A stretch of 64,000 nt of DNA, from NCBI RefSeq assembly GCF_029893235.1, contig NZ_JARXWE010000003.1, positions 62,001-126,000 of the forward strand, in the 5' to 3' direction. The stretch is from Dysgonomonas sp. PH5-45 (GTDB lineage Bacteria > Bacteroidota > Bacteroidia > Bacteroidales > Dysgonomonadaceae). Shown piece by piece: positions 57,196 to 57,985 of the stretch. How positions within the stretch are numbered: the first letter of the stretch is position 1; the number at the start of each line of letters is the position of its first letter. Both the position numbers and the translations under genes were made by a program. The notes below the pieces were generated by a model. The model was not told where the DNA came from and ran no database searches. It saw only the letters and a program-made list of their open reading frames with translations.

Positions 57196-57324
57196 ATGAA
57201 TAACGGAACAATAACTTCTAAAGCACTGTTTTTACTGTCCAACAATTTGGATAGTACCGTTATTTTATTAGAGAGAGAGAGAGAGAGAGAGAGAGAGAGA
57301 GAGAGCCTCACACGTAACATCTAA
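57196..57324 (+). CDS. Short ORF with AG microsatellite (proposed OFF phase)
   Basis: This 42-codon ORF runs from ATG 57196 to TAA 57324. It reads MNNGTITSKALFLLSNNLDS, then TVILLER and an Arg-Glu run encoded by (AG)18, and ends SLTRNI. With one more AG unit (or two fewer) the frame would avoid the stop and continue to 57985, giving about 263 residues. With one fewer it stops three codons after the tract (PHT). A related ORF at 61478 shares NLxxxxxLLER and, in the long phase, RASH. A well-placed -7 box supports expression. The protein function is unknown. I cannot exclude that only the RNA matters. Confidence 0.5.
   Translation: MNNGTITSKALFLLSNNLDSTVILLERERERERERESLTRNI
57270..57305 (+). 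repeat. (AG)18 dinucleotide microsatellite
   Basis: This is a perfect 36-bp AG tract, the only long simple repeat in the window. Such tracts change length by slipped-strand mispairing, and each 2-bp change shifts the reading frame. It lies inside the short leader ORF. Only unit numbers of the form 3k+1 (16, 19, 22) open the long downstream frame. Confidence 0.97.
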
Positions 57325-57406
57325 CTATAAATCACACACAAACAACATATTACTACTTTTATTTCTCTTAATAAAAGTACATCTTTACAGCCTATTATCG
57401 CCATGC

Positions 57407-57985
57407 GTGCATGTGCTTACGCATAGCGTCAAATTATCAAATAATTTTATCAGACAAAAGATTCGGGTATTTTTTTTCGCGAAAAAAAATCCGCTATTCG
57501 TGTGCCCTGTACCTGCCAATGGTAAAGGGTTAGCATCCCTTTTTATTCTCCAAAACATAAACCTGAAAACTATACAAAAAAGGGTTCGGGGAGTTCTTGT
57601 TTTTTATTTGCCTTTCATTCAATTCGATTCAGTTGCCATGCCGTTTGGGAAAATAGCAGGCAATACGTACAAATTGAATAGGAACTCCCCTTACGCTTTT
57701 GCCGTGACTTTACTTTTGGACAAAATATTTTTTCTATTTAAAACAATTTCCAAGATTGTGCCTTTGGCTATGTCTAATTCCCGTTTTAGGGCATTAGTGC
57801 CAACGGATGATCTGCACACATGTATCGTACATGTGCTAACACAAACTTACTGTATATATCTTGAAGAAGAAGTGGTAGTCAAGACAGAGTACAGGGGATT
57901 TCATGCCATATTTTTGCCTTTTACACTTGTTTGGCTATTTGTGAAAACAGCAGGCAGTACTTCTATTAAATTAAGCCCGGTGTGA
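57407..57985 (+). other. Downstream open frame, reachable only after AG-tract slippage
   Basis: This 193-codon open stretch has no good start of its own (only GTG). It lies in the frame that joins the short ORF when the AG tract has 3k+1 units; no stop occurs between the tract and 57407 in that frame. It includes NINLKTIQKRVRGVLVFYLP, similar to NINNKPTPRRIRGVPVFYLP in the ORF at 61478. It passes through elements R2a and R2b, whose translations resemble each other (RGVLVFYLPF and RGFHAIFLPF). The composition is Phe/Leu/Lys-rich without known domains. Treat it as a possible, not proven, coding region. Confidence 0.35.
57588..57690 (+). mobile_element. Inverted-repeat element R2, copy a
   Basis: This 103-bp unit is bounded by perfect 9-bp inverted ends GGGGAGTTC/GAACTCCCC. 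The interior has TTTGCCTTT and CCGTTTGGGAAAATAGCAGG, shared with copies at 57894, 61731 and 63763. It looks like a small non-autonomous element. Confidence 0.7.

Follow-up and report, generated by a model that had tools for sequence, protein, structure and literature searches.

What is a long dinucleotide repeat doing inside a very short open reading frame that stands ahead of genes for secreted surface proteins? The question is posed by a locus of Dysgonomonas sp. PH5-45, in a stretch of 64,000 nucleotides referred to here as the window (C3:62001-126000, in a genome of 2.65 Mb in 75 contigs), where an earlier note had proposed a phase-variable gene switched by slippage of an (AG)18 tract. The tract, and its placement within an ORF of 42 codons, are confirmed. 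TRF reports a perfect repeat at 57270..57305 on the forward strand (the strand of all the window features given below), the top-scoring array in the window with a score of 72, the runner-up scoring 49, and AGAGAGAG occurs 16 times in the window, 15 of these overlapping within the tract, versus an expectation of 0.74 from 100 shuffles. As assembled, with n=18, the leader ORF (57196..57324) translates as MNNGTITSKALFLLSNNLDSTVILLERERERERERESLTRNI and ends in an early stop, which would be the OFF phase of the proposed switch. The AG unit not being a multiple of three, the frame shifts with each step, and, as had been claimed, a single phase of the three is open: with n=19, the presumed ON phase, no stop is met between the tract and a TGA at 57983-57985, the long frame occupying 57306..57985 and bringing the total to 263 codons, and the remaining two phases stop 12 and 19 nt past the tract. 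The long frame is a separate ORF, its stop lying 75 nt ahead of the gene at 58061.

Upstream of the leader, a candidate promoter-like box of the TAnnTTTG type, TATATTTG, is recognized by consensus only at 57161..57168, and the tract starts 102 nt past its end. A promoter-spacing switch was considered for the window and rejected, as the tract lies neither between the boxes nor just upstream of them. Ahead of the tract, the leader carries a 45-nt motif (57226..57270; ...NLDSTVILL), defined by its nucleotide conservation in relatives, with a small inverted repeat, TACTGTCCAACAATTTGGATAGTA, at 57233..57256. In the window genome the motif forms a palindrome, and in C5, another copy of the leader in this genome, a different sequence makes an inverted repeat at the position of the palindrome. 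Past the tract are an A/T-rich hairpin, H1 (57464..57493; folded stretch, -7.5 kcal/mol), a small terminator-like hairpin, AAAGGG..CCCTTT, with a T-run (57524..57542), in a region where the terminator scan is at background, and the hairpins 2A (GGGGAGTTC...GAACTCCCC, 57588..57690, -36.2 kcal/mol) and 2B (GGGGATTTC...GAAGTCCCC, 57894..57992, -30.8 kcal/mol), each with a weak T-run. The long frame traverses 2A and terminates in the 3' arm of 2B. A generic terminator scan of the window leader region returned 7 candidates versus 6.9 in shuffles, that is, background, and an Rfam scan of window positions 53000-64000 gave no match up to E=1. The putative operon behind the leader consists of a gene for a protein of 149 aa (58061..58510), with no Pfam match and an N-terminus resembling other QVTIG secreted proteins, and a gene for a protein of 784 aa (58541..60895) with a FISUMP domain (PF09603).

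The cassette is not an isolated one. With 57196-58060 as the query, 25 matches are found in the same genome, and the four sites with at least seven AG units in this genome are all such leaders. Beside the 18 units of the window copy, tracts of 15 (C1), 15 (C3a), 17 (C26), 5 (C5) and 4 (C3c) units are present, a gene for a QVTIG-type protein follows each of the leaders, and all six tract-bearing copies are assembled in the early-stop phase; in C1, the ATG and the LLER motif are in different frames, with an early stop in both. The hairpins of C1 and C26 score 27.0 and run into a T-run. The likeness that had been noticed between the long frame and an ORF 4 kb downstream of the window tract (RASH; RRIRGV.VFYLPF) is real. 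This second leader (61478..61780) has no tract and is a continuous ORF of 100 codons through LLERKRASH; its stop falls inside a hairpin (61723..61846; folded stretch, -33.1 kcal/mol) with the T-run CCTTTTT, and the gene behind it (62152..63402) encodes a QVTIG-type protein of 416 aa with no Pfam match. The RASH codons are GCT TCG CAT in ORF 61478 versus GCC TCA CAT in C1 and C26, the differences being synonymous. Likewise, C3:131569-131991, outside the window, has no long tract, and its ORF of 140 codons passes through the RASH codons into the hairpin. Judging by their reading frames, both are probable locked-open copies. Other copies are less complete. At 63655-63870, past gene 62152, the window contains what is left of a leader, lacking ATG, motif and tract but retaining an entire hairpin, GTACGAAGGATTTCATGCC...GGCATGAAGTCCCGTAC, and seven T in a row; a C16 copy (L061, C16:52300-52760) has a further large hairpin behind a leader that looks decayed; and at C31:10700-10790 (L062) there is another large-hairpin copy without a recognisable leader.

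As to the spread of such leaders, the C26 leader found no match at E<=0.001 in two congeners (G094 and G095), and the same two genomes have no tracts of at least eight AG units. Tracts of this size occur in 27 of 101 Dysgonomonadaceae genomes, with up to 43 per genome, the maximum being G032 with 24 and 19 tracts on its two strands. In an order-level sample, such tracts are present in 59 of 392 genomes. The reversed-pattern control of these searches, and of the tract search in the window genome, carries no information, since an AG repeat, when reversed, is a GA repeat. Scanning genome contigs for the motif followed by a tract yielded 64 stretches, in records titled Dysgonomonas, Dysgonamonadaceae, Prevotella, Bacteroidia PG1894_40 (2) and Tannerella (1). 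For other families, 20 places were fetched out of six genomes of the order sample. The same leader motif is found at all seven places in G125, and at five of the six places in G386 and G433 (AG)n stands behind a different leader sequence, possibly an independent version of the switch; the rest of the 20 are ambiguous. Leader endings in G433 and G386 (L234, L235, L237-L239) read ..GFGTIFA and ..CGTAIA, and other surface genes are found behind them.

In these related gut bacteria the genes behind the leaders are often for nutrient importers. Among 76 reference proteins encoded downstream, 75 were aligned and scanned (L159, with a tract of 156 units, was set aside by choice, L066 and L130 by the script); 37 of the 75 belong to the SusC/RagA family of TonB-linked receptors, five have a FISUMP domain, and the others appear to be secreted, by a crude score for signal-peptide-like starts.

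Is the leader ORF translated? The comparison is based on 133 tracts (20 of 25 taken in from G030, 15 of 18 from G010), of which 88 have a leader ending with 1000 nt or more downstream; 78 of these are free of N and have their gene start 60-900 nt away (for L066 and L130, among the 78, the gene picked was spurious). Among 64 non-redundant leaders (50 + 14), an ATG in frame before any stop is present in 61, versus 12.2 in shuffles (max 21), and the remaining two frames have such an ATG in 4 and 1 leaders; because of this excess over both the shuffles and the other frames, the ORF is probably translated. The TAnnTTTG box is found upstream in 40 of 63 non-redundant leaders, versus 8.9 in shuffles (max 17). 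The 15 codons ahead of the tract read xIFSxENLxVSxILL in genus g3 and others, or LNFNxLGLDMCVEIL in g4, with 48 of 98 leaders of the g3 type and 6 of 23 of g4 entering the conservation analysis as non-redundant. This motif is conserved at the nucleotide level, one codon being TTG in 48 of 48, and the third positions are, at most codons, conserved well above the prediction from codon usage. Such conservation, third codon positions included, and the case of C1, with the motif in another frame than its ATG, would suit an explanation by which the tract sets the spacing of DNA or RNA elements (a promoter, a regulator site or a structure), with the reading frame irrelevant. We consider this explanation very improbable, as the in-frame ATG and the geometry of the phases are far above shuffles and the window tract lies ~100 nt downstream of the promoter box. 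The conservation may reflect an aid to slippage, ribosome loading or factor binding; the attenuation model set out below leaves it without explanation.

The geometry of the phases also speaks for a frame-dependent switch. A hairpin followed by a T-run was located between the tract and the gene in 53 of the 78 leaders, versus 5.7 expected from shuffles; in these counts the row for the window (L058) uses an inverted repeat at ~57505-57591, not 2A or 2B, the row for C5 (L060) likewise uses another inverted repeat, and that for C3a (L057) uses H1. At all 53 loci at least one phase stops at least 15 nt ahead of the hairpin. One phase enters the hairpin at 35 loci, two phases do so at 17, all three at none, and C5 is the sole locus with no such phase, so that both kinds of phase are present at 52 of the 53. 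When the hairpin is at least 40 nt from the tract (48 loci), 47 loci have both kinds, versus 10.6 in shuffles (sd 2.5, max 19, 500 rounds), a comparison in which related loci, forming clusters of similar leaders, are not independent. On average, the shortest phase reaches its stop 10.6 nt past the tract, versus 16.0 in shuffles. The hairpins, with a median fold of -23.0 kcal/mol, do not cover the start codon, because they end a median of 103 nt before the gene (range 19-470). This arrangement of stops and predicted hairpins is the layout of an attenuator. Outside the set of 53 are 35 of the 88 leaders, 27 of them measurable: 13 of these have inverted repeats scoring 29.7-53.1, without a T-run, and the others are weak; the corresponding shuffles for the 13 (at least 78 values) were all lower, with a maximum of 24.4.

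What, then, would be the thing that is switched? The view that it is the 263-residue protein that varies in phase, in the manner of classical translational phase variation, has in its favour the single phase that opens the long frame and the long frame of L125, which continues through the structural gene, as do the frames of L225, L226 and L229, reaching about 2000 nt. We nonetheless hold it to be highly unlikely: the window tract is not in frame with the structural gene, the ORF stopping 75 nt short of it, many SusC loci have a longest phase of only 20-60 codons, and the product, unlike those of other loci, is weakly constrained (dN/dS 0.49-0.92, from highly diverged pairs within the genome that align over more than 60 codons). 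In the comparison of C3b with C5 the value is 2.11, on 20 codons, and dN/dS is here weak evidence in either direction. Among gap lengths in the long frame, multiples of three are not preferred (49 of 196), most of the alignments being too diverged for a test of triplet indels. The long-frame product differs from locus to locus and the stop-versus-hairpin geometry is retained, and it is because the product is weakly constrained and variable and this geometry is kept that the switched thing is most likely the translation of the leader. The proposal of a slippage switch is thus upheld in one part, the setting of the frame by tract length, for which comparative support is strong, and revised in another, the 263-residue protein most likely giving way, as the switched item, to leader translation that gates the operon.

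The mechanism that we propose would proceed as follows. A promoter upstream of 57196 would produce a leader RNA, on which ribosomes would translate the short ORF and reach the AG tract. Replication slippage would alter the AG count, and with it the frame in which the ribosome leaves the tract; slippage within a population is a step that we infer. In an OFF phase (of which the window copy has two and most relatives have one or two), the ribosome would halt shortly past the tract, the downstream hairpin would fold and transcription would end ahead of the operon. In an ON phase, the ribosome would enter or pass the hairpin and prevent its folding, and the operon for surface proteins would be transcribed. 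The window copy would be OFF with n=18, as assembled, and ON with n=19. We also infer three other steps, the start of transcription, termination in vivo and the disruption of the hairpin by the ribosome. Attenuation of the E. coli pyrBI type likewise has a ribosome that blocks a terminator hairpin by translating the leader; there, nucleotide supply sets the coupling, and in the AG leaders a heritable repeat number would set the frame. In Neisseria opa and Haemophilus lic, repeat slippage shifts a reading frame, as would be the case with the AG leaders; unlike in translational phase variation of the opa/lic type, the window tract belongs to a leader ORF distinct from the gene for the surface protein.

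These sequence comparisons strongly support a switch of reading frame by tract length, and control by frame-gated leader translation, in general terms, is very probable. As to the acting step, attenuation is a likely one for the family, with predicted hairpins and T-runs as its basis, and for the window copy itself it has a chance somewhat better than even: there it leans on homology to C1 and C26, because neither large hairpin of the window has a good T-run and the terminator scan does not rise above background. Polarity or coupling are real alternatives at the window copy. For the family, an action of frame-gated leader translation through translational coupling, Rho-dependent polarity or RNA decay, not through an intrinsic terminator, seems rather unlikely, and has specific observations on its side. 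Coupling may contribute at loci whose leader stop adjoins or overlaps the start codon of the next gene, because the long-frame stop of 14 of 76 loci falls between -4 and +20 nt relative to the gene start. Four of these are at -4 (ATGA), and C3c also ends in ATGA; in G125 the long frame ends at -4, overlaps the gene or continues through it, and the inverted repeats are near background. The lack of good T-runs in the window hairpins also fits. On the other side, stop-to-start distances are different at 62 of the 76 loci, and a hairpin with a T-run is present in 53 of 78 leaders, with the frames arranged around it.

The lengths of the tracts vary considerably, the differences being between paralogous loci and between species, none of them within a strain. 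One example is presented by leaders with flanks 85-90% identical, which differ in n (23/8, 28/10, 31/10, 29/8 and 36/9), all five pairs being G024 versus a UBA7710 MAG, for which assembly may shorten the tracts; other UBA7710 tracts reach 24-31 units. Another example is a single MAG, Ct408_bin100, with six paralogous leaders of 13 to 26 units. In PG1894_40, two contigs have the same flanks with 11 versus 14 units; these contigs (L120:1-180 and L134:2330-2540) share the leader and a terminator-like hairpin and differ in the sequence further upstream, as though by copying of the leader cassette. In G030, 13 of 14 related leaders are in the early-stop phase. These leaders (L173-L192) are clustered a few kb apart, ahead of surface genes of the QVGINT type. 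Over the loci with a located hairpin, the assembled state is ON at 8 of 35 with one permissive phase and at 15 of 17 with two, the neutral expectation being about one third and two thirds, respectively. Dinucleotide tracts can slip regardless of function, and some of the tracts are at contig ends, which would speak for neutral repeat expansion or an assembly artefact. We give this explanation hardly any credence: the same anatomy recurs across many genomes, including 'quiver'-titled records and one single contig of 5.2 Mb, and the phase geometry with its in-frame ATG is not reproduced by shuffles. In the single-contig genome G024, AG runs of 156 and 125 units are found (L159 and L165); the L165 run adjoins stretches of N, and an effect of assembly or masking is possible for both.

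The same logic has been experimentally demonstrated for pil1 of Streptococcus gallolyticus, where GCAGA repeats in the leader peptide switch expression via a premature terminator and, by the authors' account, pil3 is switched in the same way (Danne et al., 2014; PMC3894217). As described there, the likenesses to the AG leaders are a repeat unit not divisible by three, located in a translated leader peptide, whose number sets the frame, short peptides that end before a stem-loop terminator and long ones that end in or after it, and surface structures as the thing switched (PMC3894217). The differences are that the pil system is of Firmicutes, with GCAGA repeats at the two pilus loci described (PMC3894217), whereas the present one is of Bacteroidota, with AG, and is known from sequence. 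Here, in addition, the leader has a conserved motif, SusC receptors and other surface proteins are the targets, up to 43 tracts are present per genome, and some leaders overlap or fuse with the gene. The AG leaders would be a large Bacteroidota version of the pil1-type logic, differing in repeat, phylum, motif, targets and number. In Bacteroides, as would be the case with the AG leaders, surface functions that include the SusC type are phase-variable, there through invertible promoters, among them those of SusC/SusD families, as covered by a recent review (PMC11868660); these act by site-specific inversion, in contrast to repeat slippage in a leader ORF. A term search of the text of this 2025 review of phase variation returned no mention of attenuation, leader peptide, dinucleotide or gallolyticus (PMC11868660). 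In the transcriptome of B. thetaiotaomicron, long 5' UTRs are described as containing short ORFs that recall attenuation leaders and are unvalidated (PMC7366714). A Bacteroidota version of the switch is not described among the matches listed from open-access papers, a scope outside which fall every bioRxiv preprint and most subscription papers.

In conclusion, the broader reading, which we find fairly probable, is that Dysgonomonadaceae, and perhaps other Bacteroidales, possess a genome-wide combinatorial switchboard of slippage-driven attenuators, randomising which nutrient importers and surface proteins each cell makes. A genome would hold up to tens of (AG)n leaders, independent of one another and each permissive in one or two phases, and the whole would be, with the same fair probability, a repeat-based counterpart of the Bacteroides invertons that rests on a dispersed leader module. 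If this is true, phase variation driven by repeats is common in parts of the Bacteroidota and readily missed, since the tracts lie within short leader ORFs, and the state of each switch could be read in long reads. A mechanism from the pili of one streptococcus would then become a general design, of which dozens of natural variants could be compared, and would help to account for differences among cells in glycan uptake, phage receptors and surface antigens.
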